From the NCBI RefSeq assembly GCF_000186865.1, contig NW_008705563.1:1633883-1656830 (forward strand): DNA of 22,948 nucleotides, read 5' to 3'. The translations under genes were made by a program, and so were the position numbers. Shown one piece after another: positions 5,801 through 22,837 of this stretch. How positions within the stretch are numbered: the stretch's first letter is position 1; the number at the start of each line of letters is the position of its first letter. Source of the DNA: Aureococcus anophagefferens. Lineage: Eukaryota > Sar > Pelagophyceae > Pelagomonadales > Pelagomonadaceae. Below the pieces are notes generated by a model. The model had not been told where the DNA came from. It made no database searches and was given only the letters and a program-made list of their open reading frames with translations.

Positions 5801-8460
5801 TGGACCCGTCCCTCGCCTTCCTCGCCTACAAGCGCGCGGGCGGCGAGTGCGACGCGGACCTCATCCGCGTGACGACGGAGAACGGCCTGTTCAAGGACCA
5901 GGCGCGCTACCTCGTCGAGAAGCAGGACCTGGAGCTGTGGGCGTCCGTGCTGACGCCGCCGGCGGAGGAGGCCGTCGGCGACGCGTCGGAGGCGAACCGG
6001 CGCGCGCTCATCGACCAGGTCGTGCAGACGGCGCTCCCGGAGACGCGCGACCCCGATCACGTGTCGACGTCCGTGAAGGCGTTCATGGCCGCGGACCTGC
6101 CCCACGAGCTCATCGAGCTGCTGGAGCGCATCGTCCTCCAGGGCAGCGACTTCTCGGAGAACAAGAACCTGCAGAATTTACTGATCCTCACGGCCATCAA
6201 GGCGGACAAGGAGCGCGTCATGGAGTACGTCAACCGCCTCGACAACTTCGACGGCCCGGAGATCGCGAAGATCGCCGCGTCGGACCAGTACAATCTGTAC
6301 GAGGAGGGCTTCGTGATCTACACGAAGTTCGCCAAGGCGGCGCCCGACGCCGCCGCGGCCGCGGAGTTGAACGTCGCGGCCGTCGGCGTTCTCGTCGACC
6401 TCGTGCGGAACCTCGAGCGCGCGTCCGAGTTCGCGGAGCGCGTCAACGAGGCCGGCGTCTGGTCGCGCCTCGCCAAGGCCCAGCTCGCGGAGGACCTCAT
6501 CGCCGCGGCCGTGGCGTCCTTCATCAAGGCCGGCGACGCGACGTGCTACGGCGAGGTCATCGCCGCCGCGGAGCGCGAGGATTCCTACGAGACGCTCGTG
6601 CCGTTCCTCGCGATGGCGCGGAAGCACGTCAAGGAGGCCCAGCTCGACACCATGCTCATCTACGCCTACGCCAAGTCGAACATGCTCGGCGACCTCGAGG
6701 AGTTCATCGCCGCGCCGAACGTCGCGTCGATCCAGTCCATCGGCGAGCGGTGCTTCGACGAGGGCCTGTTCTCCGCCGCGAAGCTCCTCTTCGCGTCCAT
6801 CAACAACAACGCGAAATTGGCGCTCTGCTACGTGAACCTGGAGATGTACCGCGAGGCCGTCGACGCGGCGCACAAGGCCAACTCCGTGTCGACGTGGAAG
6901 GAGGTGAACCGCGTCTGCGTCCAGGTCGGCGAGTTCCGCCTCGCGCGCGTCGCGGGGCTCCAGATCATCGTCCACCCGGACCACCTCGAGGAGCTGACGC
7001 TCCTCTACGAGCGCGCGGGCCAGCCCATGGAGCTGATCCAGCTCATGGAGCAGGGCCTGGGCCTCGACGCGGCGCACTCGGGCATCTTCACGGAGCTCGG
7101 CGTGCTCTACTCGAAATACGTGCCCGCGAAGCTCATGGAGCACATCAAGATCTTCTGGAGCCGCATGAACACGCCCAAGCTCATGCGCGCCTGCGAGAAG
7201 GCCCTGCTCTGGGACGAGGCCGTGTTCCTGCTCAAGGAGGACGAGCAGCACGACTCGGCGCGGATTTCGGCTCGGGGGGTCCCCGCCACACGTCAGAACT
7301 CTCGAGCTCGGTCACATCGACGTCGATTCGGCTGATTTTTGGACGAATCGAAGGCTCTCGTCGAGTTCTCGAAGCACGGCCGAAGCGTCCGGTCCACATC
7401 GTTCGAGTACGCGCGCATTGAAGTCGGGTCGAAGATTTGGCATCCGCGCAGGTACGACAGCGCGGTGAAGACGATGATCGCGCACGCGACGGCGTTCGGC
7501 CACGACCTCTTCCTCGACTGCGTCCAGAAGGTGCGCAACTCGGAGATCTACTACAAGTCCATCGCCTTCTACGTGGAGCAGCAGCCCCTCCACCTGAACC
7601 GGCTCCTGCAGGTGCTCACGCCGCACCTCGACCACTCGCGGTGCGTGCACCAGGTGCGCAAGCTCGAGAATCTGCCGCTCGTGCTGCCCTACCTCAAGGC
7701 CGTGCAGAAGGAGAACCTGACGGCCGTGAACGACGCCGTCAACGAGCTCTACGCGGACGACGAGGACTACGAGGCGCTCCGCCAGTCGATCGACGACTTC
7801 GACAACTTCGACCACATCGCGCTCGCGCAGAAGATCGAGAAGCACGAGCTCCTCGAGTTCCGCCGCATCGCCGCCTACATCTACAAGAAGAACAAGCGCT
7901 GGCAGAAGAGCGTCCAGCTCTCCAAGGCCGACAAGATGTACAAGGACTCGATCGACACGTGCGCCGAGAGCGGCGACAGCGAGATCGCCGAGGACCTGCT
8001 GCGCTTCTTCGTCGACGTCTGCGACAAGGAGTGCTTCTGCGCGACGCTCTACACGTGCTACAAGGTCATCAAGCCCGACGTGGCCATCGAGCTCGCGTGG
8101 CGGTCGAACTACGTCGACTTCGTCATGCCCTACGTCGTCCAGTACACGCGGCACCTCCACGACAAGCTCGAGGAGCTCGACAAGCGCACGGCGCCCAAGG
8201 CGGAGGACGAGGCGTCGCCCGAGGCCGCCGCGGCCCAGGCCATGATGTACGGCGACCCGGCCATGGGCATGGCCGGCGGGCCCCCGATGCTCATGGCGCC
8301 GCCGGGCGCGCCGGGCGCCTACGTCGACCCCAACGCCTACGGCATGCCCCAGAACGGCGGCATGCCGCCCCAGATGGGCATGCCCGGCATGCCCCAGCCG
8401 GGCTACGGCATGCCCCCGCAGGGCATGCCCGGCATGCCCCCGCAGCCGGGCATGTTCTGA
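2841..8460 (+). CDS. Clathrin heavy chain, five exons
   Basis: Exons are 2841-2879, 2936-2977, 3046-3217, 3293-7247 and 7452-8460. Together they give 5217 nt and 1738 residues (animal clathrin heavy chain is about 1675). The product forms the triskelion leg of clathrin coats in endocytosis and Golgi-endosome traffic. The N-terminal beta-propeller carries MESEKF, IMNPVSKV and LQIFNLEL. The rod of CHC repeats includes LEKWLTEDKLECSE, FTHYDRQYV and PWLEARI. The trimerisation end includes KHELLEFRRIAAY. The three small N-terminal introns were placed because removing them aligns the start (MAAIPVNFSEVLN, then LPSLGVSAGSIKFG, then SCAMESEKF) without gaps to the known family. The fourth intron is an introner; removing 7248-7451 joins EDEQ to YDSAVKTM, again without a gap. 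The tail (after about residue 1670) is Met-Gly-Pro-rich with repeated GMP. Confidence 0.97.
2880..2935 (+). other. Spliceosomal intron 1 of the clathrin gene (56 nt, GT-AG, phase 0)
   Basis: The donor is GTACGT and the acceptor TTTCGCAG, with a short pyrimidine run before it. TTACTGAG about 25 nt upstream of the acceptor is a plausible branch site. It is located by continuity of the clathrin N terminus. Confidence 0.85.
2978..3045 (+). other. Spliceosomal intron 2 of the clathrin gene (68 nt, GT-AG, phase 0)
   Basis: The donor is GTGCGT and the acceptor CCGTAG. Splicing joins SIKFG to SCAMESEKF and keeps the exact family spacing before MES. The ATG at 3055 is therefore an internal Met (residue 31), not the start. 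Confidence 0.8.
3218..3292 (+). other. Spliceosomal intron 3 of the clathrin gene (75 nt, GT-AG, phase 1)
   Basis: The donor is GTCCGG and the acceptor CGCGCAG after a C-rich tract. It is 75 nt long and stop-free, so an unspliced reading stays open and would insert 25 Arg/Ala-rich residues between SKVLALR and GTQLQIF. The gap-free fit to clathrin when removed shows it is an intron. Confidence 0.85.
7256..7451 (-). mobile_element. Introner element copy A (196 bp), serving as clathrin intron 4
   Basis: The 8-bp target duplications are 7248-7255 (gcacgact) and 7452-7459 (gtacgaca), 6 of 8 identical. The ends are imperfect inverted repeats (CGGCGCGGAT on the left against CTGCGCGGAT from the right, 9 of 10). 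The intron is 7248-7451 (204 nt, GC-AG, phase 2) and splits a Gln codon. The core matches copies B and C, but relative to transcription this copy is in the opposite orientation. The strand given is that of the family orientation used for copies B and C in their hosts. Its end sequence and duplications have drifted, so it looks older. Confidence 0.9.
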
Positions 8461-8621
8461 GCGCGGCTCCCCCTCCCCCCACCGCCCGCGACTGCCAGAC
8501 CGCGGGCCGCACGCCCCCCCCCCGCCCCGCCCCGCAACGCTCGGCTCTCTACCTTCCGCCGTAAAAGAAATCAGCCCCGCCCCCGCGACGACGCGCCTGC
8601 AGCCAAAGCCCCCCCCTCGTA

Positions 8622-9365
8622 TTAGTAGCCCAGGAACGCCTTGATCTTCGCCTTGACGGCGTCGTCGTCCTCCTCGAAGACGTCGAACTCGAGGAGCTGG
8701 TCCCGGGGCACGAGGCAGCGCACGAGCGCGTTGTGGGCCGCGAGGAGGAGCGCCGCGTCGAGCGCGTTCGAGCCGCGCATCTGGCCGGTCGGGTTCTCCT
8801 CATTCTTGATGATGCGCTGCACGGGCCGGTTCGAGAGCGACGCGAAGGGCACGGGCGACCGCTGCTTCTGTATGAGGCCGTGGGACCGCGACTTCCACCA
8901 CGCCGTCCCGTTGCGCGTCGTGAGGATGACCCGGGCGTTCGGATACGTCGCGAAGATGTAGGGGAAGAGCTGGGGCACGGGCGTGTCGAAGACGCCATCC
9001 CAGTCCTGAAAAATGTCGAAGTCGAACGTCGCGCGCCGCTGCGGCTTCGCGTCCATGAGCGCCTTGAAGGGACCGAACTTCCACTTCCGGTTGTGCGCGA
9101 CGCGCCGCTCGGGGTCCGTGTAGTTCGGGTAGCCCATGAAGTAGTGGCCGACGAGGAGCGGCGGGTCGCGCGCCTCGCTGACCCACTCCGCGACGGTGTG
9201 CGTGCCCGTCGTCCCCTCGCCGGCGCCGATGACGAGGCGCTTCGCGCTCGTCGTCGGCGGCCGGTACGTGTCCCGCCAGGTCCGGCGGAGGCCGCCGCAG
9301 GCCGCGTCCTCGGGCTCGGCGGCGCACGCGGCGACGAGCGCGACGATGGCGATGGACCGACGCAT
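8622..9365 (-). CDS. Secreted sulfotransferase-like protein
   Basis: This codes for 247 residues from ATG 9365, opening with a signal peptide (MRRSIAIVALVAACAA). A P-loop VIGAGEGTTGTHT at about residues 45-57 matches the 5'-phosphosulfate loop of sulfotransferases. YIFATYPNARVILTTRN followed by WWKSRS resembles the strand and the Arg/Ser pair that bind the PAPS 3'-phosphate. The C terminus (LLEFDVFEEDDDAVKAKIKAFLGY) has the usual family close. It is short for the family but looks complete. It converges on clathrin, the stops being about 160 bp apart across a C-rich spacer that includes a run of ten C at 8514-8523. The substrate is unknown. It is distinct in sequence from the one at 1314. Confidence 0.75.
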   Translation of the reverse strand: MRRSIAIVALVAACAAEPEDAACGGLRRTWRDTYRPPTTSAKRLVIGAGEGTTGTHTVAEWVSEARDPPLLVGHYFMGYPNYTDPERRVAHNRKWKFGPFKALMDAKPQRRATFDFDIFQDWDGVFDTPVPQLFPYIFATYPNARVILTTRNGTAWWKSRSHGLIQKQRSPVPFASLSNRPVQRIIKNEENPTGQMRGSNALDAALLLAAHNALVRCLVPRDQLLEFDVFEEDDDAVKAKIKAFLGY

Positions 9366-9504
9366 CGCGTCCGTGACGAGGGCGCGTCGCGGCGACGATG
9401 GCTCGCTGACCGATCTCCACTAGATTTCCACTACCGTGCCACGGGCGTCGCCTCGACCTCGCGTCAAAATCGCTCAAAATCTTACCCCAGGGCTAAGCCC
9501 ACCG

Positions 9505-9718
9505 CTAGAGCATCGCGTTCATGTCGCTCTCCATGCCCCCCTCGGCGGCGTCGTCGTCCTTGCTCCAGGCAGGCCGCGTTCAGAAACGCGAGGCACCAGA
9601 CCGCGACGGTCGGCGCGGAGAGGAACGCCGCGACGACGACGCCAAGGACAAGCGCGACTCGCCCGCGCGCAAGCGCAGCATCTCGGGCTCGGGCGACGAC
9701 GCGGCACGAATACTTAGG
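9505..9718 (-). pseudogene. Membrane-helix-coding tail after the Sel1 gene, copy 1 (frameshifted)
   Basis: Directly after the TAG of the Sel1 gene, the same frame stays open and codes a hydrophobic helix (VVVAAFLSAPTVAVWCLAFL). It then loses frame through a net 2-nt deletion relative to copy 2, just after FLNA. The acidic end (DDDAAEGGMESDMNAML) is still readable in another frame. It may be the remnant of a once longer gene or an unrelated 3' gene fragment caught in the duplication. It also accounts for most of the 353-bp gap between the coding regions at 9365 and 9719. Confidence 0.55.
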
Positions 9719-10887
9719 CTATACTTGCGGGTCGAGGCGTGCGAGGTTCCCTGTGGCTGTCTCGTCGCCCTTGGCAGCGGCGCGCTCGAACCAGTATCTG
9801 GCTTTGCCGGGGTCGACTTCCGTGCCGTCTCCTTCCATGTAAGAGCAGCCAAGGTTATTCTCCGCCTCGGTATAGCCTTGATCCGCCGCGAGCGCGTAGT
9901 ACCGGAACGCTTCTTCAAGTTTCTTCTCACGACGAAGGAAGTCCCCTAAATTGCTTTGCGCGACCGCGTCGCCCCGATCTGCGGCCGTGCGATACAGTTT
10001 CATCGCCTTCTTCTTGTCCAGCTTGACGCCCAACCCCTCGCGGTACATTTCCCCAAGGAATACCATCGCGTCCACGTCGCCGAGCTCCGCTGCGCGCCGG
10101 TAAATCTTCGCCGCTTTCTTATCGGATTTCACGAGGCCCAACCAACCGCGGCGGTACGCGCCTCCCAAAAACATAATCGCTTCCGGCACCTCGTTCTCCA
10201 CGTGGCGACGAAGACGCGCGAGCTGCTCCGCAGTGCCCTTTGGGTACGGTACCCGACAGAGGGGACACGCGTCGCGGCCGACCTTGTCATCGCACGACTT
10301 GCAGACCTTTCGGCAGCAACAGATGCGAAGCATGCCCGGATCATTCACGTCCCACTCCTCGAGGCAGATCGGGCACCGCGAGCCGTACCGCGCCGACGTC
10401 GGCTCGGGCTCCGGATTCGCCTCGCGCCGCGCCCGCGCCGCTTCGTGCTCCGCCGCGATGCGCGCGCGGACCTCGTCGGCGTGCGACCGCGGCGCGGGGC
10501 CGTAGAACACCTCGGGCGTGGGCGTCGGGGCTTCCGCCCGCGCCGCCTCCGCCGCGCGCTCGTCGCGGATCTTCTTGCACGCCTTCCGGTGGCCTCGGTC
10601 GCGCCAGTCGATGCGTTGGCAATCGGTCGAGCAGTACCTGGCGGGTCGCACGTGACTGCGCCCCGGAACGCGTCGCGCGCCGCCGGACGCGTCGCGCGGC
10701 GCGAGCGCACCGCCCCCCCGTTCACGGCGCCGGGGTCGCACTGCGTCGTCCCACAGGGGCAGTTGAGCTTCGCCTTGTCTCCACAAATCGTACATTTCAA
10801 GCGGAGCGCGAGCGCCTTGGCGCGGGCCTTTCTTTCCTCATACTCGAGCTTCTTCTTTATGAGGACGGGGTCCATCGGCGGGACCAT
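9719..10887 (-). CDS. MYND zinc finger, RING-like and Sel1-repeat protein, copy 1 (two exons)
   Basis: Exons are 10887-10742 and 10637-9719, giving 354 residues from ATG 10887. The MYND finger starts at CTICG (residue 32) and ends with CSTDCQRIDWRDRGH; the intron cuts it after GTT. A RING-like module follows (CPICLEEW, CCCRKVC, CPLCRVPYP). It lacks a clear His, so it may be a treble-clef variant. About four Sel1 repeats (for example DAMVFLGEMYREGLGVKLD and ALAADQGYTEAENNLG) make up the C-terminal half. This suggests a protein-protein adaptor or ubiquitin-linked scaffold, but the actual role is unknown. It is a near copy of the gene at 11199-12284, which has no intron. Confidence 0.85.
10638..10741 (-). 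other. Intron inside the MYND finger of copy 1 (104 nt, GT-AG, phase 2)
   Basis: The donor is GTGCGACC and the acceptor CCGCCAG. Removing it restores GTTQ-YCSTDCQ, which matches the intron-free paralogue. A 9-bp direct repeat GTGCGACCC begins the intron (10733-10741) and recurs near its end (10643-10651). It has no similarity to the introner family and no convincing target duplication. Confidence 0.85.
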
Positions 10888-10982
10888 CTCCAATCTCTCG
10901 TGTACGTGAGCTAGGGGCTTGTGGCCGGAGGGCGGGGGCGGGCAAAATCGCTCAAAATCTTACCCCAGGGCTAAGCCCACCG

Positions 10983-11198
10983 CTAGAGCATCGCGTTCAT
11001 GTCGCTCTCCATGCCCCCCTCGGCGGCGTCGTCATCCTTGCGCCAGGTTGGCTTCGCGTTCAGGAACGCGAGGCACCAGACCGCGACGGTCGGCGCGGAG
11101 AGGAACGCCGCGACGACGACGCCATGGCCAAGCGCGACTCGCCCGCGCGCGAGCGCAGCATCTCGGGCTCGGGCGACGACGCGGCGTGAAGACTTAGG
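10983..11198 (-). other. Membrane-helix-coding tail after the Sel1 gene, copy 2 (intact frame)
   Basis: The 71 sense codons plus stop follow the Sel1 TAG in the same frame. They code PKSS, an Arg-rich stretch, a hydrophobic helix (VVVAAFLSAPTVAVWCLAFL) and an acidic end (DDDAAEGGMESDMNAML). There is no early ATG of its own, so translation would need readthrough, alternative splicing (a CCTAAG acceptor lies just past the TAG) or an upstream exon. It may equally be a relic. It fills most of the 311-bp gap to the start of the copy 1 gene. Confidence 0.5.
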
Positions 11199-12284
11199 CT
11201 ATACTCGCGCGTCGAGGCGCGCGAGGTTCTCTATAGCATCCTCGTAGCCCTTGGCAGCGGCGCGCTCGAACCAGAATCTGGCTTTGCCGAGGTCGACTTC
11301 CGTGCCTGCTCCGGTCCCGTAACAGCAGCCAAGGTTGTGCTCCGCATCGGTATAGCCTTGATCCGCCGCGAGCGCGTAGTACCGGACCGCCTCTTCAAAT
11401 TTCTCCTCAGAATGAAGGAAAGCCCCTATATTGTTTTGCGCGTCCGCGTCGCCGCGATCTGCGGCCGTGCGAAACAGCCTTTCCGCCTTCTTCTTGTCCA
11501 GCTTGACGCCTTCCCCATACTTGTACAATTCCCCAAGAAATACCATCGCGTCCACGTCTCCGAGCTCCACGGCGCGCTTCCAAATTTTCGCAGCTTTCTT
11601 ATCGGATTGCACGAGGCCGTACTGACCGCAGGTGTACGCAGTTCCCAAAACCGTAATCGCTTCCGGCACCTCGTTCTCCACATGGCGGCGAAGACGCGCG
11701 AGGTTTTCCGCGTCATCTTCCGGGTACGGTAATCGACAGAGAGCACACGCCTCGAATCCGATCTTATCCTCGCACGATTGGCAGACCGTCCGGCAGCAAC
11801 AGACGCGAAACACGCCCGTATCATTCACGTCCCACTCCTCGAGGCAGATCGGGCACCGCGACCCAAACCGCGCCGACGCCGGCTCGGGCTCCGGGTTCGC
11901 CTCGCGCCGCACGCGCGCCGCCTCGTGTTCCGCGGCGATGCGCGCGCGGATCTCGTCGGCGTGCGACCGAGGCGCGGGGCCGTAGAACACGTCCCGCGGC
12001 GGCGGCGGCGGGGGCTCCGGCGCTTCGGCCCGCGCCGCCTCCGCGGCCTGGATCTTCTTACAGACCTTCCGGTGGCCCCGGTCGCGCCAGTCGATGCGTT
12101 GGCAGTCCGTCGAACAGTAGGCCGTCGTGCCGCACCCTTGGCACGCCTTGGCCTTGTCGGCGCCGCAGATCGTGCAGGTCTTGAGAGTGTCGAGTTTTTT
12201 GCCCCTCGCTCGGGCCATGCGATTCTCATACTCCAACTTCTTCTCCTGCCACGACGTCGCGCCCCCCTCCCGATTGCCGGCCAT
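11199..12284 (-). CDS. MYND zinc finger, RING-like and Sel1-repeat protein, copy 2 (single exon)
   Basis: This codes for 361 residues from ATG 12284; TTG 12296 is in frame but less likely. The MYND finger is at about residues 37-75 (CTICGADKAKACQGCG, then YCSTDCQRIDWRDRGHRKVC). A Pro-rich linker with EPPPPPPRD follows. The RING-like module at about 144-190 (CPICLEEW, CCCRTVCQSC, ACALCRLPYP) has no obvious His ligand. Sel1 repeats run from about 208 to 355. The sequence is intact and ungapped through the MYND finger, where copy 1 has an intron. The function is likely protein binding, with no substrate visible. It is one of two tandem copies that have diverged mainly in the N terminus and in the Sel1 surface residues. 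Confidence 0.88.
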   Translation of the reverse strand: MAGNREGGATSWQEKKLEYENRMARARGKKLDTLKTCTICGADKAKACQGCGTTAYCSTDCQRIDWRDRGHRKVCKKIQAAEAARAEAPEPPPPPPRDVFYGPAPRSHADEIRARIAAEHEAARVRREANPEPEPASARFGSRCPICLEEWDVNDTGVFRVCCCRTVCQSCEDKIGFEACALCRLPYPEDDAENLARLRRHVENEVPEAITVLGTAYTCGQYGLVQSDKKAAKIWKRAVELGDVDAMVFLGELYKYGEGVKLDKKKAERLFRTAADRGDADAQNNIGAFLHSEEKFEEAVRYYALAADQGYTDAEHNLGCCYGTGAGTEVDLGKARFWFERAAAKGYEDAIENLARLDARV

Positions 12285-12496
12285 CGCGTCGACCAAGACT
12301 CTGGCGAGGGACCCTGACTTAGCGACGCATCATGCGCAGGCAGGACGCCCCCCGGCCCAGGGCCTGGATCTGCCCTGGAGCCCTCCCTTGATCTCTCTGA
12401 GCTTATCCGGACGGCGGCGGCGGCGCGCGGCGGGGCGGGCGCGGCGGCGGCGGTCTTCTGCGCGGGCTTCGGCGAGCTCGGCGCGCGGTAAGGGCC

Positions 12497-12524
12497 GGCC
12501 GTCGCTTGACGACAAGCGACGGCC
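12497..12524 (-). terminator. Perfect 12-bp stem, 4-nt loop hairpin downstream of the Cys-rich membrane protein gene
   Basis: GGCCGTCGCTTG at 12497-12508 pairs perfectly with 12513-12524 around the loop ACGA. It begins about 50 nt past the stop of the gene at 12573-13070 on the minus strand, so it would lie in that 3' UTR. A 3'-end role is inferred from position only. Confidence 0.5.
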
Positions 12525-12572
12525 CGCGCGGCGCGGCGCGCGGCGCGCTTGGTCGCGAGCCCCGTCGCGCGC

Positions 12573-13070
12573 TTAGGCGCCGCGGCGCCTGCAGCAGATG
12601 CAGCAGGCGACGATGGACGCGATGACGACGATGATGGCGACGACGATGCCGATGATGATGCCGATGGCGAGTTTCTTGGCCGTCTTCTTGGAGAGCTCAT
12701 TCTTGCAGTGGAGGTAGGCGTCGCCGCACTTCGGGTAGCTGCTGTCGCGGTCGCAGCACCAGGTCAAGCCTTCCTTCTCGCAGTTCCGCGCGTTGTCGTA
12801 GAAGAGGTCGCAATACTCTTCTTCGTCGTCGTGGCCGTCGTGGTCGTCGTGCCCCTCGGGGGTGCAGTAGAACCAGCCCCCTTCCACGGCGGAGCACCAT
12901 GGGTTGGCATCCCCGTCACATGCGATTGCCGGGCACCCATACTGCTGGTCCATGCAACCGTCCGTATCGTAAGACCATTCTTCCAAGCACGTCCCGGTCT
13001 CGATCATATCATGATCGCCGAAGGCGCCGAGCGCGAGGGCCGTGAGGGAGAGGATGGACTTGAGCATCAT
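12573..13070 (-). CDS. Small Cys-rich type I membrane protein
   Basis: This codes for 165 residues from ATG 13070 (the second Met is the next codon). A signal peptide (LKSILSLTALALGAFG) leads a Cys-rich, acidic ectodomain with about 14 Cys, WSYDTDGCMDQQYGCP, an Asp/His-rich stretch (GHDDHDGHDDEEE) and WCCDRDSSYPKC. A strong single membrane segment (IGIIIGIVVAIIVVIASIVA) follows, and then a short cytosolic CCICCRRR tail that could be palmitoylated. I do not recognise the family. The His/Asp run could bind metal. The Cys pattern suggests a disulphide-rich surface or vesicle protein. Confidence 0.8.
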   Translation of the reverse strand: MMLKSILSLTALALGAFGDHDMIETGTCLEEWSYDTDGCMDQQYGCPAIACDGDANPWCSAVEGGWFYCTPEGHDDHDGHDDEEEYCDLFYDNARNCEKEGLTWCCDRDSSYPKCGDAYLHCKNELSKKTAKKLAIGIIIGIVVAIIVVIASIVACCICCRRRGA

Positions 13071-13591
13071 CTGCGGGGGGATGTCGGTCGAGGCTAAGGG
13101 AAGGGAACGAGGAGTCGGGGATGTTCGGTTCGGCGCGATCGAGTCGGATCGACGCGCGCGCGGGCTGACATCGGGGGATTTTTTTGGGGGGGGGGGCGCT
13201 CTCTCGGGCCGCGGGGAGGACGTCGAGCGCGTGCGGTGCTTCCCGGCGCCGCGGCGGCAACGAAGCGTGCATTTTGCGGCGATCGAGTCTAAAGATAAAA
13301 TTGCGCGGCGAGTTCGTTGCCAAAAGTCGACACGTTCGACGGGATGCGGGGTTCAGGGCGATGCGAGCGGGGGGTGTTTGGAGGGTGACTCACGGTGTTG
13401 GTACGGAGTCTGGCGTGCGAGAGGCCTAAACCTTGAAGGAGCGAACTCAGATCACTTGGCGGTTGAGGGAACCGGCACTAGATCGGCACTCGCGGAAGCG
13501 GACTCAAGGCTGCGAGGCCTGCTGCGACACGCGAAGGCTTACGCGAAGGACGCGGCGATCAATGTCTGGGCGGCGCCTCCCAAAATAAATA
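13071..13591. other. 521-bp gap: promoter side of the Cys-rich gene and 3' flank of the fucosyltransferase-like gene
   Basis: I see no convincing gene here. It holds a homopolymer pair of seven T and eleven G (13179-13196). The GC content from 13260 to 13560 is lower than in flanking coding DNA. An open frame on the plus strand crosses it but has no recognisable protein character. Confidence 0.5.
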
Positions 13592-14932
13592 CTACGAACC
13601 TACTCCACCCACCGGCACGTCCCCCGTGCCCTCCTCGTGCGCGCGGCAGAAGAGGGAGTGCTGGAGCGCGTCGAGGCTCCGCCGTTTCGACGCGGGCGGC
13701 GCGCCGGCGCAGCCGTCCCGGTGGACGATGACGGACTGGGGCCGCCTGTGGAGCACGGCGGCGGCCTGGCCGAAGGTCGAGTGGAAGCCCCGGAAGACCG
13801 CGGCCGTCGACGCGAGGGCCCAGAGGTCCGCGGCGGCCGCGCGCTCGCCCGCCGCGCGGCCGCGGCCGCCGCGGTCCTCGGCGGCCGCGTCGAGCGCCAG
13901 CACCTCGAGGCGCGGCGTGCCCGCGGCGTCGCTGCCCGCGCGGAGCGCGTCCGCGAACTCGGCGACGAGCGCGGCGTCGTTCGACGCGACGTAGACCGCG
14001 CGCGTCGCGGGCTCGCCCCGCGCGCGCCGCCGCGCGGCGTCGCGGAGCACGGCCTCGGCGAAGGCCGGCGCGCCGACGCAGACGTCGAGCTTGTTGCCCC
14101 AGGTCGTGCCGTCGCCGCGGTCCCAGGGGTCCGCGCCGCGGAGGTGCACGCCGACGAGTTCGCCGGACGCGTAGCCGCCGACCGCCGCGGGCACCTGCGA
14201 GACGCGCGATGAGCGCGAGACAGAGGAGAGACACGGACGCGGCGCACGCGCGGCGTCGCGCACCGCCGCGGCGGGCCGGAAGCCGTCGAGCCAGCCGAGG
14301 ACGCGCGCGGAGCAGAACGCCGCGTCGTCGACGCGGACCGCCGACACGTTGCGCCCGTCGCGGCCCTCGAAGAAGTCGCGCGAGGTCACGGCCCGCAGCT
14401 TGCCGTCGCTCGTCGGGACGCGCCACACGCGCTTCTTGTGGGGCCGCGGCCGCGCGTCGGGGACCCACGCGCGCGCGACGTCGACGAACTGGCGCGCGAC
14501 GTGGCCGCCGCAGCTCGCGAAGACGCAGGGGCCGGACCCGGGCCCGCCGGCCGGCGCCGCGCAGGTCAGGTCCGCGAAGTCGCGCACGGCGACGCCCTCC
14601 GCGAAGCCGGACGCGGACCGCGCCGCCGCGCCGTCGCGGCCGCACGTGACCCGGCCGCCGGATTTGCCGCGATCGCTCGTCGCGTCGACCTCCACGACGC
14701 GGTCGAAGGCCGGGTGGGCCTCCCAAAGGTCGCCGAAGGCCGCGCCGAGCACCGAGCCCCGGACCCAGTTCACGGACGGCGCGAGGGACCAGGCGTGGGC
14801 CAGGGCCAACGCCTCCATCATGACGGCGATGCGGTTCCCGATGCCGCAGCAGGGGACGACGACGAGTTCCTGGCGCTCCGGCGTCGACGCGGCGGCGGCC
14901 AGGACGCATGCCGCGAGCCCGAGGCGACGCAT
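13592..14932 (-). CDS. Secreted or Golgi fucosyltransferase-like glycosyltransferase
   Basis: This codes for 446 residues unspliced, or 423 if the 69-nt candidate intron at 14195-14263 is removed. I chose ATG 14932 because it opens a signal peptide (MRRLGLAACVLAAAAST); an in-frame ATG at 15055 lies upstream. CCGIGNRIAVMMEALALAHA (residues 28-47) is the G-x-GNR donor-loop motif of the fucosyltransferase/NodZ group. VGVHLRGADPW holds the HLRG seen in that superfamily. VYVASNDAALVAEF and DLWALASTAAVFRGFHSTFG match its late donor-binding strands. This suggests GDP-sugar transfer in the secretory pathway; the acceptor is unknown. It is divergent from the ankyrin gene, with a 121-bp spacer. Confidence 0.75.
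   Translation of the reverse strand: MRRLGLAACVLAAAASTPERQELVVVPCCGIGNRIAVMMEALALAHAWSLAPSVNWVRGSVLGAAFGDLWEAHPAFDRVVEVDATSDRGKSGGRVTCGRDGAAARSASGFAEGVAVRDFADLTCAAPAGGPGSGPCVFASCGGHVARQFVDVARAWVPDARPRPHKKRVWRVPTSDGKLRAVTSRDFFEGRDGRNVSAVRVDDAAFCSARVLGWLDGFRPAAAVRDAARAPRPCLSSVSRSSRVSQVPAAVGGYASGELVGVHLRGADPWDRGDGTTWGNKLDVCVGAPAFAEAVLRDAARRRARGEPATRAVYVASNDAALVAEFADALRAGSDAAGTPRLEVLALDAAAEDRGGRGRAAGERAAAADLWALASTAAVFRGFHSTFGQAAAVLHRRPQSVIVHRDGCAGAPPASKRRSLDALQHSLFCRAHEEGTGDVPVGGVGS
14195..14263 (-). other. Candidate stop-free 69-nt intron in the fucosyltransferase-like gene
   Basis: The donor is GTGCGC and the acceptor TCGCAG in phase 0, with a pyrimidine-rich run between (around tctctcctctgtctcg). 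The length is divisible by three and has no stop, so it is hidden in the open frame. It codes 23 Ser/Arg-rich residues between GFRPAAA and VPAAVGG that do not look like the rest of the fold. Confidence 0.65.
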
Positions 14933-15053
14933 GGGGCGGAGCCAAGCTTGCGAGGCCTTGCTCGATCGCACAAAGCCTTTGTGGTAATTTTTTGAGTCGC
15001 AATAGTGTGCGCGTGGGCGCGCGGCACACGACACAGGGACACCCCGCGCGAGC
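14933..15053. promoter_or_regulatory. 121-bp divergent promoter region
   Basis: It lies between the starts of the fucosyltransferase-like gene and the ankyrin gene. It contains an AT-richer patch (14980-15005) in otherwise GC-rich DNA. No TATA box is evident. Confidence 0.4.
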
Positions 15054-15818
15054 ATGGATCAAGCGTTCATCGCCAACGGATGGACAACACCGCAAGGAGA
15101 GGCTTTGCTAAGGGGGGACCGTGTGGCGCTTAAGAAATGGCTGGACGAAGGCGGCGATCCCAATATGAGATTCAATTTTCATTGTCTCCTCCACATGACT
15201 TTGTACGGAGACCAAACTACTAGAGCTGATCGGTCAGATATGGTTCGCCTCTTGGTTTCTAATGGTGCGGATATAAACGTCCGACGCGGCGACGGAATGA
15301 TGCCGATTCACTTATGCTCGTATCCAAGCGAGGCTTCGCTACTACTCGATTTGGGCGCCGATGTGGATGCTCGCACTGACGATGGGCGAACGCCTCTTTT
15401 TTGTTTCACTTTTGGTGGACGTCTGGAATGCGCGCGTTTCATCGTGCGACGCGGGGCCGACGTGAAACTGACGGCCGACGATGATGGTTGGGATGCGTTT
15501 GAAGAAGCTCGCGAGGAAGGGACATATGATCAGTGTTTGGCGGACTTCGTCTCCGCCGTCCGTGCCGCGGGGGGGTGGCAAACCTACATCCGAGCACCTC
15601 GTATCGAGCTCGTCCGCCTACGTCTGCTTTGCGCTCGCGGCCGCGCGCGACCTCCGATCGCACGCCGCGACCCCATCCTCGCGCGACTCTTCTCCGCCGC
15701 GCCGTCATCCTCCTCGACCCCGAAGCGTCTCGCGAGCCGCCAGCTCCACCGCCCGATTCCCAACGAGGTCTTCTGGCACATCCTCTCGTACTGGCGCACG
15801 AGCCGCGACGACGCCTAA
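15054..15818 (+). CDS. Ankyrin-repeat protein with a conserved C-terminal LSYWRTSRD module
   Basis: This codes for 254 residues from ATG 15054. Ankyrin-type repeats occupy about residues 13-140 (DMVRLLVSNGADINVR, SLLLDLGADVDARTDDGRTP, ECARFIVRRGADVKL). A helical C-terminal module follows (YIRAPRIELVRLRLLCARGRA) and ends in PNEVFWHILSYWRTSRD, which recalls the short box motifs at the ends of adaptor proteins. It is likely a protein-binding adaptor; the partner is unknown. Codon use changes inside the gene: the first two thirds (to about 15540) are AT-richer with many A/T third bases, while the last third is GC-rich like the neighbourhood. That suggests a mosaic origin from a multicopy family. 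Confidence 0.8.
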   Translation: MDQAFIANGWTTPQGEALLRGDRVALKKWLDEGGDPNMRFNFHCLLHMTLYGDQTTRADRSDMVRLLVSNGADINVRRGDGMMPIHLCSYPSEASLLLDLGADVDARTDDGRTPLFCFTFGGRLECARFIVRRGADVKLTADDDGWDAFEEAREEGTYDQCLADFVSAVRAAGGWQTYIRAPRIELVRLRLLCARGRARPPIARRDPILARLFSAAPSSSSTPKRLASRQLHRPIPNEVFWHILSYWRTSRDDA

Positions 15819-15879
15819 AAGACCACATCGAATCCCGCTGAAAGACCAACATCGAATCCCCCGGAGAATTAATTGAGCC

Positions 15880-16407
15880 TCAAACCTCGTCCTCGTCGAG
15901 GACGTGGACCTCGAGCGCGAAGCGGGGCGCGCGGTCGACGTCGTTGACCTCGAAGCGGTGGCCGCCCGTCGCGGTGTGCGTGACGTGGTGGCCCTTCTCG
16001 ATCCAGAGGTAGCCCGCGTCGTGGTGCTTGAGCTCCATGGCGCCGCCCTCGGGCTCCTCCATGATGTTGTAGAAGCTCACCTTGTAGGGCTGCGCGTCGT
16101 CGTCGTGCGCGTAGAGCGAGAACCGCGCGCGCCACCGCATGTCGGCGCTCCGCAGGGCGAAGGCGTCGGAGAAGGCGACGTAGCGGCCCGCCTCGCCGCC
16201 GGGCTCGATGATGGCGTTGAGCGTCTCCGAGCCGTCCCACATGGCGACCTCCGGCCCGGGGTCGTAGCCGTTGCCGAGGTAGTAGAAGCCCAGGTCCTCG
16301 CTGCCCGTGTTGTGCACGATGATCTTGTGCCGGTCCGCGCCGTCGTAGGGCACGACCTGGGCGCGCGCGACGCAGCAGAGCGCGACGAGCGCGAGCGGTG
16401 CGCGCAT
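15880..16407 (-). CDS. Secreted protein of unknown function
   Basis: This codes for 175 residues from ATG 16407, chosen because it opens a clean signal peptide (MRAPLALVALCCVARAQ). The mature part is compact and probably all beta: HKIIVHNTGSEDLGFYYLG, then AMWDGSETLNAIIEPGGEAG, then YLWIEKGHHVTHTATGGHRF. The order (strand, N-[TR]-x-S/G, hydrophobic strand, PGG turn) is loosely like the VHL beta domain found in some extracellular hydroxylase-linked proteins, but I would not name it so. There are no catalytic motifs. It ends in an acidic LDEDEV. It is divergent from the gene at 16619. Confidence 0.65.
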   Translation of the reverse strand: MRAPLALVALCCVARAQVVPYDGADRHKIIVHNTGSEDLGFYYLGNGYDPGPEVAMWDGSETLNAIIEPGGEAGRYVAFSDAFALRSADMRWRARFSLYAHDDDAQPYKVSFYNIMEEPEGGAMELKHHDAGYLWIEKGHHVTHTATGGHRFEVNDVDRAPRFALEVHVLDEDEV

Positions 16408-16618
16408 GGCGCGGCGGGGCAGCGTCTCGTGAGCGTCTCGAATGGCAACCGACTCGTTTCCCTTCAAGTTGCATAGTTCGGGCTGATGTCAACCTCTTGC
16501 GTATGATGATCGCATCGCATCGTTCGCGACGCTGAGACGCGACGCATCGCAGCCTTCGCGGCAGTAGACGACATCTCGACGACCCATCGCATCGTTCGCG
16601 ACGCTGCTCCTCGACACA
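16408..16618. promoter_or_regulatory. Divergent promoter with a perfect 22-bp direct repeat
   Basis: Positions 16513-16534 and 16585-16606 are identical over 22 bases; the core is CATCGTTCGCGACGCTG. They are 72 bp apart. The second copy ends 12 bp before the start codon of the gene at 16619. They could be binding sites for a shared regulator of the two divergent genes, or a simple local duplication. Confidence 0.5.
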
Positions 16619-17365
16619 ATGAGACATCCAATGCTCCTCGCGCTGGCCGGCATCGCGGCAGCGCTCGACCTGCGGCCGGCGCTCGTGAAGCCGGGCAAGA
16701 CGCTCGCGGTGAGCGTGCAGGTGCGCGGCACGGATGCGGCGGCGCTCAAGGAGCTCTCGCGCGAGTTGCGCACGAGCTGCAAGGCGGCGACGCTCTGGGC
16801 CGACGACGTCGCCACCGTCGAAGCGCTCGTGGAGGAGCAGGCGACGGCGCTCGGCGACTTCCCCGGCCCGTGTCCGGTGATCTTCGACGGCGCGGCGGAG
16901 GACCGGGCGGGGGCGATTTCCCGGGGCGCGTCCGCCGTCGTCGTCGACGCGGCGGGCGACGTCGACGTCGGCGGCGACGTCTCGAAGATCTGGCGCTGCG
17001 GCGGCGCCGCGGACGCGAGCGCGCTCGCGGCGCGGGGCGAGGGCCCCTACTTCCTCCTCGACGGCATCGACGACGCCGCGGACCTGCCGCCCGAGGCCGT
17101 CGTCGTGGCGGGCGTCGACGCCATGCAGCCGGACCACGGCGAGATCGACGCGGGCCGCGCCGCGCAGGCCGCGGGCGCCCGCGGCGTGCTCCTGCGCGGC
17201 GCCTGCGTCGGCGACAACGAGGACGCGCCCTACGCGGCCTTCGCCATCGGCCGGCTCCGCACGAAGAAGTCGACGTCCTTCGGCATGGACGGCTTCACGG
17301 GCTCGACGAACGGCCACTTCGGCTCGCCGGTCGACTCGGACCCGCGGCCCTGGAAGCGCGCGTAG
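16619..17365 (+). CDS. Unknown protein with signal-like leader, possible TIM-barrel relative
   Basis: This codes for 248 residues from ATG 16619. The leader MRHPMLLALAGIAAALD is hydrophobic and could be a secretory or plastid presequence. The body alternates strand and helix with repeating GA-rich turns (RGASAVVVDAAGD, PEAVVVAGVDAM, AAGARGVLLRGACVGDNED), as in a TIM barrel of the phosphate-binding type. The C terminus is distinctive: RTKKSTSFGMDGFTGSTNGHFGS and then PRPWKRA. I do not recognise a catalytic motif. Indole-glycerol-phosphate-synthase-like folds are possible but unproven. It converges with the RibD-like gene, 28 bp from its stop. Confidence 0.6.
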   Translation: MRHPMLLALAGIAAALDLRPALVKPGKTLAVSVQVRGTDAAALKELSRELRTSCKAATLWADDVATVEALVEEQATALGDFPGPCPVIFDGAAEDRAGAISRGASAVVVDAAGDVDVGGDVSKIWRCGGAADASALAARGEGPYFLLDGIDDAADLPPEAVVVAGVDAMQPDHGEIDAGRAAQAAGARGVLLRGACVGDNEDAPYAAFAIGRLRTKKSTSFGMDGFTGSTNGHFGSPVDSDPRPWKRA

Positions 17366-17393
17366 GCATGGGCCCAAAGCTAAAACACCACCA

Positions 17394-18107
17394 TTACGTT
17401 TCGTCGACGACGAGCGCGCCGTCGAGGAGCATGGCCCAGATCGGCGCGGCGCCGGGCCGCGTCCACGTGTGCGTGTCGTCGCCGCCGACGTCCCTCCGGC
17501 TGTGGAAGGCGAGCCCCGCGCCCCGGAGCAGGGCCGCGTCGATGCCCGAGGGCACGGGCTGTTCGAAGACGACGGGCGCGCGGACGATGACCGCGCGGTC
17601 GACGAGCCCCGCGGCGAGAAACGCGCGCGCCGTGAACGGCCCGCCCTCGACCATGAGGTGCGCGACGCCGTGGTCGCGCTCCAGGGCGTCGAGCATGGTC
17701 GGCAGCTCGCCGAAGGGCTCGAGGGCCACGGCCGGGTCGACGGCGCCGAAGTCGCCCCGGGAGAAGACCGCCGTCGGGAGGCCGTCGGTGAGCAGCGCGG
17801 CGTCGCGCGGCGCGCGGCCGTTCGGGTCGAGGATGACGCGCAGCGGCTGCGCGTCGTCGATGGGGTCCACGCGGCGCACGGTCAGCGACGGGTCGTCGCG
17901 CGCCACCGTCGAGACGCCGACGAGCACGGCGTCGGACCCGCGCCGCAGGCGGTGCACGCAGTCGAGCGACGCCGGCGACGTGAAGCGCCCGGACTTGCCG
18001 CCCAGGTCGTCGACGGCGCCGAAGCGGTCCACGGCGACCTTGAGCGTCACGTGGCCGCTCCACGCCTGGGCCACCGGCAGCCAGGCGAGCAGCGCAAAGA
18101 TGGCCAT
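17394..18107 (-). CDS. RibD C-terminal-domain (riboflavin-pathway reductase) protein, likely plastid-targeted
   Basis: This codes for 237 residues from ATG 18107; the GTG codon just upstream is not needed. The RibD_C/DHFR-like signature is clear: VTLKVAVDRFGAV, then SDAVLVGVSTVARDDPSLTVR (about residues 58-78), PLRVILDPNGRAP and LMVEGGPFTARAFLAAGLVD. Such proteins use NADPH to reduce the ribosylamino-pyrimidine intermediate of riboflavin synthesis; there is no deaminase domain, so it acts alone or is a relative. The leader MAIFALLAWLPVAQA followed by W resembles the bipartite plastid presequence (ASAF-like cleavage site) of algae with red-lineage plastids. It shares a 68-bp divergent promoter with the gene at 18176. 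Confidence 0.85.
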   Translation of the reverse strand: MAIFALLAWLPVAQAWSGHVTLKVAVDRFGAVDDLGGKSGRFTSPASLDCVHRLRRGSDAVLVGVSTVARDDPSLTVRRVDPIDDAQPLRVILDPNGRAPRDAALLTDGLPTAVFSRGDFGAVDPAVALEPFGELPTMLDALERDHGVAHLMVEGGPFTARAFLAAGLVDRAVIVRAPVVFEQPVPSGIDAALLRGAGLAFHSRRDVGGDDTHTWTRPGAAPIWAMLLDGALVVDET

Positions 18108-18116
18108 CACCTCAGA

Positions 18117-18142
18117 GACCTCAATTGATCAAGATTGAGGTC
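18117..18142. promoter_or_regulatory. 26-bp inverted repeat in a 68-bp divergent promoter
   Basis: GACCTCAAT at 18117-18125 and its exact complement at 18134-18142 flank an 8-nt spacer. The repeat lies between the start codons at 18107 (-) and 18176 (+), where there is little other room for a regulatory site. Confidence 0.5.
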
Positions 18143-18175
18143 GGTGCTGCAGCCATCTTGCCGCCGTGGGGCAGC

Positions 18176-19451
18176 ATGGTGCCCATGCTCGTCGTCCTCG
18201 CCGCGGCGACGGCCGACGTCCTCGCCGCGGCGTCGGCCGACGCGCGGCGCTTCGCCGTCATCGTGCGCGGCGACGCGTTCCGGAGCCACGGCGAGAAGCG
18301 GAACCAGCGCCTGAAGAACGTGCTGCGCTGCACTCCCGAGGCGGCGGCCATGCAGGAGGCGCTCGCGGCCCAGTTCCGGGCGCACGTCGTCGCGCCGCTG
18401 GAGACCGCGGGACACGTCGACGTCTTCCTGAGCGGCGCGGGCTGCGCGGGCGACGCCGCGTCGTCGCGGAACGCGGGCGACGCGCACGGCGACGGCGCGC
18501 GCGCGCGAGCGACGTGGGACGCGGCCCTCGCGGTGTGGTACGGCCCCGTCGCGGCCGCGGAGCTCGGCGCCCGCGGCGCCCTGCAGACGGACAAGGTCCT
18601 GCGGGGCTTCGACCTCGTTGCGGGCCACGAGCGGGCTGCGGGCGTCGCCTACGACGCCGTGCTCGTCACGCGGTTCGACGCGTCGCACCGCGCGCCGCTG
18701 GCCGCGGCGGGCCTCGGCGACCTGCTCGCGGCGACCTTCGTCGAGGTCCACGGCGACTGGTTCTGGTCCGCGCCGCGCGAGGCCGTGCCCGCGCTCGTCG
18801 CCCAGCTCCGCGGCGGCTGCGCGGCGGACGCGGGCGAGGACCCGTGCGCAAATCAAATCTTCAACCCGACTTCAATGTGCGCGTATTCGAATGTTTTGAC
18901 ACGAGCACTTCCGCCGTGCTTCGAGAACTCGCTGAGAGCCATCGATTCGTCCAACAATCAGCCGAATCGACTTCGATGTGACCGAGCTAGAGAATTCTCA
19001 AGTTTGGCCCCGACGTCCCAGCTCACTGGTTGATTTCCACACAGGCGAGGACCCGGCGAGCGACTCCGTGCACCTCTACCACTGCGCGTGGGCCGTGCGC
19101 GACCACGTCCACAAGGGCACGCTGCCGGCCCTCGCGGGCCTCGCCTACGGCGGCCGCGGCGCCTTCGAGCGGAGCGCCGGCGGCGGCGTGCTCCTGCTCC
19201 AGCGCGTCTACGACGAGGCCGCGCGCGCGCGGCCGCCGCACCGCCGCGACCCGCGGCGCTGCCGCGAGGGCCTCCCCGACGACGGCTGCGGGCCGTCGGC
19301 CTGCGAGACGCTCCAGCGCGACTTCGGCGGGCCGCCCTGCGAGCCCGCGGCGCTCCGGGACCCGCTCTGCGCGGCGCTCGCGCGGCGCCTCGACGCGGGC
19401 GAGCCCATCCCCGCGCACTACGGCTGCGACGCGCGGCGGGAGCTCACGTAA
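18176..19451 (+). CDS. Lumenal glycosyltransferase-like protein, two exons split by an introner
   Basis: Exons are 18176-18833 and 19045-19451, giving 354 residues. ATG 18176 opens a signal-like leader (MVPMLVVLAAATADVLAAA). FAVIVRGDAFRSHG near residue 26 and AYDAVLVTRFDASH further on follow the pattern of nucleotide-sugar transferases (first Rossmann strand; an Asp-containing metal-site strand). The second exon (HLYHCAWAVRDHVHKG) continues the fold. Its C-terminal third is Cys-rich and ends in DARRELT. The donor is GC at 18834 and the acceptor AG at 19044 (phase 1). Splicing there restores AG-EDPASDSV; no other GT site keeps the frame as well. The sugar and acceptor are unknown. Its stop is 10 bp from the stop of the helicase gene on the opposite strand. 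Confidence 0.7.
18842..19044 (+). mobile_element. Introner element copy B (203 bp), intron of the glycosyltransferase-like gene
   Basis: The target duplications are perfect: gcgaggac at 18834-18841 and 19045-19052. The ends are a 15-bp inverted repeat, 12 of 15 matching (CCGTGCGCAAATCAA left; TTGATTTCCACACAG right). The intron is 18834-19044 (211 nt). Its base composition is strikingly AT-rich next to the host exons. It differs from copy C at 8 of 203 positions. Confidence 0.95.
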
Positions 19452-19461
19452 GTCTTTCGTC

Positions 19462-21817
19462 TTAGGCCCCGAACTCGCTCACCTGGGACGCGAAGAGCGT
19501 CTTCCGCTTCTTCGCCGCGTGGGCCTTGCCCTTGAGGTGGGACGCCGTCGACCCGACGCTCCGCGACTGGTGGCCCTTGTTGGAGCTCGCCTGCTTCTTC
19601 AGGTTGCGCGACCGCTTCGTGCCGCCGCGCGTCTCCGCCGCGCGCCGCGCCTTCGCGTCGAGGCCGTCGTCGTCGCGGTCCTCGCGGCTCCGCTTCGCGA
19701 TCTTCGCCGGCGTCTCCCGCAGGCCAAAGGCCTTGGCGCAGTGGCCGAGGTGGATCTTGCGGATGTGGAACGCCTTGTGCAACGCGTCGCGCTCCGCGTC
19801 GTCCGTCGCGGCGTCGCGGCCTGTGTGCAAATCAACCAGTGAGCTGGGACGTCGGGGCCAAACTTCAGAATTCTCTAGCTCGGTCAAATCGAAGTCGATT
19901 CGGCTGATTTTTGGACGAATCGATTGCTCTCAGCGAGTTCTCGAAGCACGGCGGAAGTGCTCGTGTCAAAACATTCGCATACGCGCACATTGAAGTCGGG
20001 TTGAAGATTTGATTTGCACACAGGTCGCGGCCTCGAAACGCGGAGCTCGCGTACGCGCGGACGTGCGCCGAGAAGGCGTCGCGCGCCTTGGCGCCGAGGT
20101 CGTCGTCGCCGGCGACGAGCTTCTCGAGCACCGTCGCCGCCGCCGTCGCCTTGGCGTCGTCGAAGTGGGCCTTGGACGCGAGCGCGGACCGCCGCGGCGG
20201 GCCGGCGCGGAGCCGGCGCGCGAGCGCGTCGAGGAAGGGCCGCTCCGACGGCAGGAGCACGAGCGTCGAGCTGCCGGCGTTGCCCGCGCGGCCCGCGCGG
20301 CCGCAGCGGTGCACGTAGGTGCCCGCGTCGCGCGGCGCGTCGAGCTGGACGACCCGCTCGACCTTGGCGGCGTCGAAGTCCAAGCCGCGCGCGGCGACGT
20401 CCGTGGCGACGAGCACGGCGGCGCCGCTGCGGCAGAACTCGACGTAGGCGCCCCGGCGCTCGTCGCGCTTCATGTTCCCGTGGAGCCGGCCGGCGACGCG
20501 GGGCGCCTTGGTCGCGCCCTCCCAGAGCCGGCGGCACTCGGGCCGATTGAGGAGATCCGCGTGGAACTCCGCGGACGCGCACGTGGACACGAAGACGAGC
20601 GTCTTCGCGTGCGGGTGGTCCCGGAGCATGGCCGCGAGGGCGCCTAGACGGAGCTTGAGCGTGCAGATGGCGTAGGACTGGGCCAGCGTCTCCGGCATCG
20701 CGATGGTCTCCACCGCGCCGGGCGCCGTCTCCCTTTTCGCGACCTCGACGAGCGCGTGGTCCCGCCCCAAATGGGCCTTGGCCAGATCCGCGAGCTTGGC
20801 CGTGATCGTCGCCGTGACGAGCACGGTCACGTAGGTCTTGGCGCCGAGCCGCCGGATGATGTCGTCGATCTGCGGGCCGAAGCCCATGTCCAGGAGCCGG
20901 TCGACCTCGTCCAAAACCACCCAGTCCAAAGCGTCGAATTTCAAACAGGCCGTCGATTTCAAATGGTCCAGCAGCCGGCCCGGCGTCGCGACCACCAGGC
21001 TCAGGCCCTTGCGGAGCCGCGCCTTCTCCGACTTGCGCCGCTCGCCGCCGGTGATCGCGCCGGGGACGATCGACACGTCGTACTTCCTCGCGACGACCTC
21101 GACGACGTCGGCGATCTGCAGGCAGAGCTCGCGCGTCGGCGCGAGCACGAGGCAGCCCGCGCCGTCGCCGCGGCCCTTCTTGCGCGCCGCGAGCGCCTCG
21201 AGCACGGGGAGCGCGTACGCGAGCGTCTTCCCCGAGCCCGTCGGCGCGACGAGCAGCGCGTCCTTTTTCGACCGGAGCGCCAAAAGGGCCCGGGTCTGCA
21301 CCTCCGTGGGTTTTGCCAATCCCAGGCCGCCGCGGTCGCCGCGCGGCGCCGAGCAGATGGCCGCGAGCCGGTCGTCGTAGCCGGCGTCGAGGAACGCGGC
21401 GCGCGCGCCGCCGGCGTCGTGCGCGGGCTTGGGCCGCGGCGCCGCCGGCGCCGCCGCGTCGCCCCGGGGCCGCGTCAGCTCCGCGGGCGACAGGTGGAAC
21501 GCGCTGAACTCCTGGCTCGGCGTCCACGCGTGCCGCTTCTTCCGGCTCGGCGGGCCCGCGTCGGCGGCCTCGGCCGCGGGCGCCGCGGGTGCTTCGGCCG
21601 CGGCCTCGGGTTCGGCCGCGGGCGCCTCGCGCTCCGCTTTCTTGACGGTGACGACGCCCTTCTTGATCGTGATCGTCGGCCGCCCGCTCGCCGACGCCTT
21701 GGCCGCGTGCGCCTTGTGCGCGCGCGCCTTGCGCTCCTTCTTCGTCTCCTTCTTCGGCGCCGACCGCGGCGCCGCGGCGCCCGACGCCACGAAATTGAAG
21801 GTGAATGAGTCGGTCAT
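19462..21817 (-). CDS. DEAD-box RNA helicase, DDX31/Dbp7-like, two exons split by an introner
   Basis: Exons are 21817-20032 and 19820-19462, giving 714 residues from ATG 21817. A Lys/Ala-rich, probably nucleolar N terminus (about 1-100) precedes the core. Motifs are Q174 in the Q motif region, I VAPTGSGKT (190-198), Ia PTREL (227-231), Ib TPGR (278-281), II DEVD (303-306) in place of DEAD, III TAT (335-337), V ATDVAARGLD (471-480) and VI HRCGRAGR (503-510). After the core, AHVRAYASSAF and FHIRKIHLGHCAKAFGLRETP form the DUF4217 domain of the DDX31/Dbp7 group, known in large-subunit ribosome assembly. The introner cuts this domain (phase 1). The tail is Lys/Arg/Ser-rich. DUF4217 also occurs in Spb4 and Dbp4 relatives, so the subgroup is likely rather than certain. 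Confidence 0.88.
19821..20023 (-). mobile_element. Introner element copy C (203 bp), intron of the helicase gene
   Basis: This is the best-preserved copy. It has a perfect 15-bp terminal inverted repeat (CTGTGTGCAAATCAA at 19821-19835, and its complement at 20009-20023) and perfect 8-bp target duplications (gtcgcggc on the plus strand at 19813-19820 and 20024-20031). On the minus strand the intron is 20031 to 19821 (211 nt), GC-AG, phase 1. Splicing restores FRG-RDAATDD. Confidence 0.96.
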
Positions 21818-22810: not shown

Positions 22811-22837
22811 CAGCAGCAGCAGCAGCAGCAGCAGCGT

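Follow-up and report, generated by a model that had tools for sequence, protein, structure and literature searches.

Mobile DNA elements as predicted spliceosomal introns in three genes of Aureococcus anophagefferens

Three copies of a family of mobile DNA elements of about 203 bp, which have inverted ends and duplicate 8 bp of the target, lie within the stretch of Aureococcus anophagefferens DNA analysed here (22,948 nucleotides, hereafter the window). We are highly confident that a transposase encoded elsewhere likely moved the family and that each insertion is a predicted spliceosomal intron. The ends, duplications, copy number, coding-like flanks, frame continuity and strand-specific GC/GT start of these insertions were read directly from the DNA. 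The window presents three stages together: copy C is almost pristine, copy B is lightly altered, and copy A is old and sits in a conserved gene.

Results

Elements of the window and their host genes

Copy A was located on the reverse strand at positions 7256-7451 (196 bp), copy B on the forward strand at 18842-19044 (203 bp) and copy C on the reverse strand at 19821-20023 (203 bp), the last with perfect 15-bp inverted ends. The initial annotation had described three elements of about 200 bp, with inverted repeats and 8-bp duplications, in different genes. The lengths agreed with this description, and the duplication at A departed from it: 6 of its 8 bases were identical, while the duplications at B and C were exact. 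At A, the intronic copy of the duplication (7248-7255, forward strand) reads GCACGACT and the exonic copy (7452-7459, forward strand) reads GTACGACA, with 2 mismatches between them. At B, the intronic copy and the exonic copy (19045..19052, forward strand) both read GCGAGGAC. At C, the duplication is GTCGCGGC twice, or GCCGCGAC in the gene sense; its exonic copy (19813..19820, reverse strand) was likewise read directly from the sequence. Relative to its host gene, copy A has the orientation opposite to that of B and C.

Divergence from the family consensus was 0.5% for C, 3.4% for B, which differs from C at 8 of 203 bases, and 23.5% for A, the most diverged of the three, which matched the consensus at 85% over 155 nt. 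When the consensus was compared with the window, copies A, B and C were matched, each with an E value of 4e-47 or better. No further copy was found in the window; the next matches were single arms of C (E 0.013) and B (E 0.54), and the rest had E values of at least 1.9.

Each predicted intron comprises the intronic duplication copy and the element. The predicted introns are 204 nt long in the clathrin heavy chain gene (7248..7451, forward strand), 211 nt in the host gene of B (18834..19044, forward strand) and 211 nt, including the duplication copy at 20024-20031, in the gene of a DDX31-like helicase (19821..20031, reverse strand). All three have GC, provided by the duplicated bases of the host, as the predicted 5' splice site and CAG as the predicted acceptor.

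The clathrin heavy chain gene (2841..8460, forward strand) was recognized by the Pfam family Clathrin and delimited by exon models; more short introns occur towards its 5' end. The gene that hosts B (18176..19451, forward strand) encodes a protein of unknown family, and neither of its unspliced pieces was matched in Pfam. The host gene of C (19462..21817, reverse strand, ends taken from the sequence) encodes a DEAD-box helicase of the DDX31/DBP7 type, as indicated by Pfam DEAD and Helicase_C and by the names of its relatives; this protein was 99% identical to a named A. anophagefferens protein (P0002) across 71% of the query. Removal of the element and one duplication left 354 aa and a stop (1065 nt) in host B and 714 aa and a stop (2145 nt) in host C. 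The initial annotation had claimed a restored frame for all three hosts, which was reproduced; the total of 5217 nt given for clathrin is one among many exon models that keep the frame and vary only in the 5' introns.

At site A, the predicted splice joins EQ to YDSAVKTM in frame. Of the 119 relatives spanning the site (among 120 listed of 153 found), 106 had no gap within 12 residues of it. The 13 gapped relatives in this listed set were a misread A. anophagefferens model (P0125) and 12 distant relatives, and the sole listed relative that did not span the site was another clathrin model (P0233), which stops in the element. Among the 12 closest clathrin relatives listed, the residues at the site were EQYDSA in eight, EQYDTA, DQYDSA and GQHDSA in one each, and those of the misread model in one. 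All four named A. anophagefferens models that reach site C (P0002 and P0003) or site A (P0125 and P0233) misread the introner: two treat the element ends as coding, one is mis-spliced, and one stops within the element. The named gene models of this species seen here thus contain truncated or wrong proteins where introners were misread.

Two other features of the window were observed. A tandem duplication at 9465-12300 consists of two largely repeated stretches, spaced about 1,480 bp apart, whose segments are 78-96% identical, and long runs of CAG/CGT/CGC triplets and CG dinucleotides occupy 22800-22925, near the window end.

Uninterrupted versions of the host proteins

The protein collection contained uninterrupted versions of all three host proteins. 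A helicase (P0001), encoded on a contig of 6,481 bp, matched the spliced product of host C without a gap at 700 of 714 residues. A homologue of host B (P0121), on contigs of up to 7,205 bp, was uninterrupted and identical around the insertion site. A clathrin (P0123), found on 27 contigs of up to 12,241 bp, was 99.3% identical over 1,634 aa without a gap. Because these contigs exceed the expected mRNA length, it is likely that they represent genomic alleles of the three hosts that are free of the element; alternatively, the uninterrupted versions may have come from spliced RNA.

Another sequence (P0122, from an ENA contig of 2,040 bp) reads from host B into an introner at the same site, and its introner translation differs from that of B at several residues. 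Given these differences, the insertion at the B site may date back far enough to have allowed divergence of the element.

Copy number and anatomy of the family

A 49.05-Mb assembly of 86 contigs was searched. With copy C as the query, the best 40 of 1,730 first-look candidates were scored, each with at least 97% identity. Perfect paired 14-bp ends separated by 150-180 bases were found in 78 copies, including C, versus none with a reversed control pattern; therefore, these copies are not due to chance. A looser end pattern, which included sub-families, yielded 686 + 674 = 1,360 ends versus 1 in the control. As a copy has at most two ends, this number corresponds to about 680 copies or more. On contig C1, a hand count gave 88 ends, comprising 28 pairs and 32 single ends, from which the family size is estimated by extrapolation at approximately 1,000 copies. 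The many copies expected from the earlier reading of the window were thus found. Sub-families with different, self-matching ends were also seen, for example CTGTGCCGAAACC...GGTTTCGGCACAG; these are 203 bp long as well (L027 2311-2513, L029 543-745 and L063 2129-2331).

A sample of 87 copies was compiled from the best matches to C, about 52 listed of the 78 perfect-ended copies and others in the same fetched stretches. Identical loci were merged, and both ends had to be within 4 mismatches, so that diverged copies are under-represented; copy A, too diverged for this end pattern, was included only in an alignment of 88 copies. The element was exactly 203 bp long in 78 of the 87 copies. Of the 87 duplications of 8 bp, 66 were exact, 16 had a single mismatch and 5 had more, which is contrary to the alternative, considered at the outset, of only three copies, all without duplications. 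No pair among the 85 copies scored for their flanks (see below) shared flanking sequence; therefore, the copies are separate insertions and not segmental duplicates.

In the 88-copy alignment, the median divergence from the consensus was 2.5%, and 46 of the 88 copies were under 2.5%, in a sample that favours copies close to C or perfect-ended. With this proviso on sampling, the recent activity proposed for the family is supported. The G+C content of the consensus is 49%, compared with 69% in the window. In the predicted RNA fold of the consensus, the first and last 15 bases pair in both orientations; judged by their sequences, the ends of copies B and A pair less well.

Location in genes and continuity of the reading frame

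To score the flanks of the copies, a codon model was trained on the clathrin and helicase exons of the window. To count as coding, the 240 bases to either side of a copy had to show one frame with a lead of 8 log-odds units over the next, and 85 of the 87 copies could be scored, the other two having too little flank. Both flanks had one clearly best coding frame in 82 of these 85 copies, versus 118 of 158 neighbouring segments (p=6e-6). The flanks were on the same strand in 81 copies, and after removal of the element and one duplication the frame was continuous in 78 of these; it was off by one base in two copies and by two bases in one. The seven scored copies not called in-frame genic had flanks on different strands (three), a frame shift (three) or a weak flank (one). 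In 10 of the 78 in-frame copies, the best coding score of one flank was non-positive, so that these copies pass by the margin between frames alone; under a stricter rule that also demanded positive coding scores, the frame was continuous in 68 of 70. If the element was kept, an in-frame stop resulted in 77 of the 78 copies. The intron phase was 0 in 40 copies, 1 in 21 and 2 in 17.

On the sense strand, the duplication started with GC in 55 of the 78 in-frame copies, with GT in 22 and with GA in one. In the antisense control, 23 of 78 had a GC/GT start, and the background rate was 0.20. The corresponding sense and antisense counts were 67 and 21 of the 68 copies of the strict set and 83 and 27 of all 85 scored copies. 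One locus (L001) overlaps with the sequence used for training; its removal left 76 copies, with GC in 53, GT in 22 and GA in one. Among the least diverged in-frame copies (<5%), 49 of 49 had the GC/GT start. The 3' end of the element was CAG in 78 of 78 in-frame copies. The two orientations of the element within genes accounted for 48 and 30 of the 78 copies, so that one was slightly favoured (p=0.04 for 48 of 77).

The asymmetry between sense and antisense strands argues that the 5' splice site is host sequence and that the 3' site, CAG, is the end of the element. On the simplest reading of the frame, the stops and this asymmetry of letters, the upstream duplication opens with the two bases of the predicted donor, and the predicted acceptor is CAG. 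The same three lines of sequence evidence support the earlier proposal that the insertions act as spliceosomal introns.

Sequence around the putative donor

The information around the putative donor was low beyond its first two letters: positions -8 to -1 and +3 to +8 each carried less than 0.5 bit. The match to the standard donor context, 1.56 of 7 positions, did not clearly exceed the 1.42 at other GC/GT sites of the same exons (p=0.22), and the share of GC, 55 of 77, was about the 78% expected by availability (p=0.16). These tests of donor preference rest on 77 sites, at which modest preferences would go undetected.

The two copies of the duplication differed at base 2 in 3 of the 78 in-frame copies, in each case as C/T, and never at base 1. 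The duplication of copy A in the window likewise has a C/T difference at base 2. Because the tyrosine of the clathrin relatives matches the exonic copy GTACGACA, the donor of A probably started as GT and later drifted to GC.

No match to U1 snRNA was found in the whole genome, either with the Rfam model, which also failed to match the control, or with a conserved pattern, and two places with a U1-like 5' end were rejected for lack of a match to U1. The U1 of A. anophagefferens may be divergent, may have been missed or may be missing from the assembly. U6 is present in the genome with a canonical ACAGAG box. In the window, no Rfam family reached the gathering score.

Search for an autonomous partner

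An autonomous partner of the family was found neither in whole-genome Pfam searches nor by searches for the end pattern. In the whole genome, MULE families gave no match (4 controls matched), IS1595/Merlin gave none (one control matched), and KDZ gave none with its control also unmatched; the hAT dimer family gave four weak matches. In one of these four (region L076), the 5 kb examined contained no introner end at 3 mismatches or fewer. This region carries a transposase gene of the hAT type that has one frame break (L076 1-2494, G000:C1:941400-943893), and its twin on contig C13 continues alike past the gene, which indicates a segmental duplication. A search for the core of the inverted repeat followed by a base foreign to the family hit one place genome-wide, which is not an introner. 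A pair of facing unpaired ends 4.5 kb apart on contig C1, picked by eye, turned out to belong to two ordinary copies whose ends had mutated. The left end of the element had no match in viral_contigs or genome_contigs, and host B had none in viral_contigs. An autonomous element may carry the full end sequence of the family, or it may be absent from the assembly. A duplication length of 8 bp fits hAT elements, among others, and hAT as the mover of the introners is on this basis a lead only.

Discussion

Proposed mechanism of intron formation and its alternatives

The data suggest the following sequence of events. Upon insertion, the element would duplicate 8 host bases, and the upstream copy of the duplication would supply the 5' splice site as its first two bases, GC or GT. 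The inverted end (TTGATTTGCACACAG in the consensus) would supply the 3' splice site in either orientation. Splicing would then take out the element together with one duplication and return the original mRNA. Insertions into targets without a GC or GT start on the sense strand could not be removed in frame and would probably be lost by selection.

The strong bias of the sense strand towards GC and GT could instead reflect a cutting preference of the transposase, unconnected with splicing, and the presence of these letters in all 49 of the least diverged in-frame copies would fit such a preference. For an element with inverted-repeat ends that inserts in both orientations, however, a cutting preference should be symmetric, whereas GC or GT starts the duplication in 77 of 78 copies on the sense strand and in 23 of 78 on the antisense strand, which makes this explanation very unlikely; a target preference coupled to transcription may nevertheless lie behind the GC/GT start. 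An element carrying both splice sites (GTGTGC...CACACAG), with the duplication staying in the mRNA, was also considered. All 78 in-frame copies have GTG at the inner 5' end, the GTGTGC two bases inside the 5' end of the element is a more usual-looking donor than the bare GC of the host, and a family with both sites and 12 extra bp is described for another Aureococcus isolate in the legend of Fig. 2F of PMC9860276. The internal donor would add 10 nt and not 12, however, and would shift the frame of B; moreover, exact removal keeps the frame in 78 of 81 copies, and carriage of both sites gives no reason for the 77 GC/GT starts among 78. We consider it highly improbable as the general mode, although there may be minor use of the internal GTGTGC donor.

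That these are ordinary small non-autonomous transposons, which disrupt dead or dying genes and are left unspliced, would agree with the four named A. anophagefferens models that read into the element instead of excising it, but the hosts include a clathrin heavy chain and a DDX31-like helicase whose frames are intact outside the element. In addition, coding-like sequence flanks 82 of 85 copies on both sides, and a stop would be introduced by 77 of 78 if they were kept, so this possibility appears extremely remote. Spread of introns through RNA by reverse splicing, the interpretation given for fungal introners in PMC9860276, is hardly credible here, as the inverted ends, the 8-bp duplications and the two insertion orientations fit DNA transposition. 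Transposition of DNA copies that are predicted to be spliced out together with one duplication is therefore retained as the best explanation.

A possible minimal donor

The findings at the donor allow a tentative proposal, which we think possible but on balance doubtful. The 5' splice site would here need only two host letters, G followed by C or T, with GC equal to GT in effect and no further pairing of the U1 type required. Everything else would come from the introner: a donor position held 8 nt upstream of the inverted end, and a 15-bp stem, suggested by the predicted fold of the consensus, that would hide the competing GT and bring donor and acceptor together. If this is true, any exonic GC or GT is a ready intron site, which would explain how a mobile element could seed introns genome-wide. 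The genome-wide sample yields a simple and directly testable rule, namely, that a donor consists of GC or GT with little else, in near the ratio that exons offer.

Comparison with known introners

Few sources of mass intron gain are as well documented as introners. In Micromonas pusilla, introners are DNA transposons that co-opt a host splice site, and by this description the elements of the window are alike in both respects. For A. anophagefferens, Huff, Zilberman and Roy reportedly described in 2016 introners with 8-bp target repeats in hundreds to thousands of copies, which are said to insert between nucleosomes.

The introners of this species are about 210 bp long (PMC9481584), have direct repeats as well as terminal inverted repeats of constant length (PMC7789003), and co-opt splice sites and insert in both orientations (PMC10228655). 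The window comes, by protein identity, from the same species, one of the two introner-bearing lineages named in the initial annotation. The length is shared (about 210 bp versus 211 nt for B and C and 204 for A), as are the high copy number and, compared by description only, the terminal inverted repeats and direct target repeats. The combination of one carried and one co-opted splice site is also shared, here at the level of the sequence. Less easily reconciled is the word 'canonical' that PMC7789003 applies to the splice motifs, since GC exceeds GT by 55 to 22 here; the same text also places the species in the group richer in non-canonical introns.

Family 4 of Aureococcus sp. (Gozashti 2022, PMC9860276, Fig. 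2F) shares the genus and the 8-bp duplication. According to its figure legend, that family brings both splice sites with it and leaves 12 bp extra, whereas splicing is predicted to be exact here, and its example spans 77 bp by the positions stated, compared with 203 bp for the present element. The introners of Symbiodinium microadriaticum (Fig. 2B of the same paper), as presented there, share a 3' site within the element, a 5' site recruited from the duplication and inverted ends, but their duplication is 4 bp long instead of 8 bp. The elements of the window are likely the introners previously described in A. anophagefferens. The phenomenon itself is already published for this species, and its quantitative part, a donor of GC or GT only, taken about as exons offer it, may be new.
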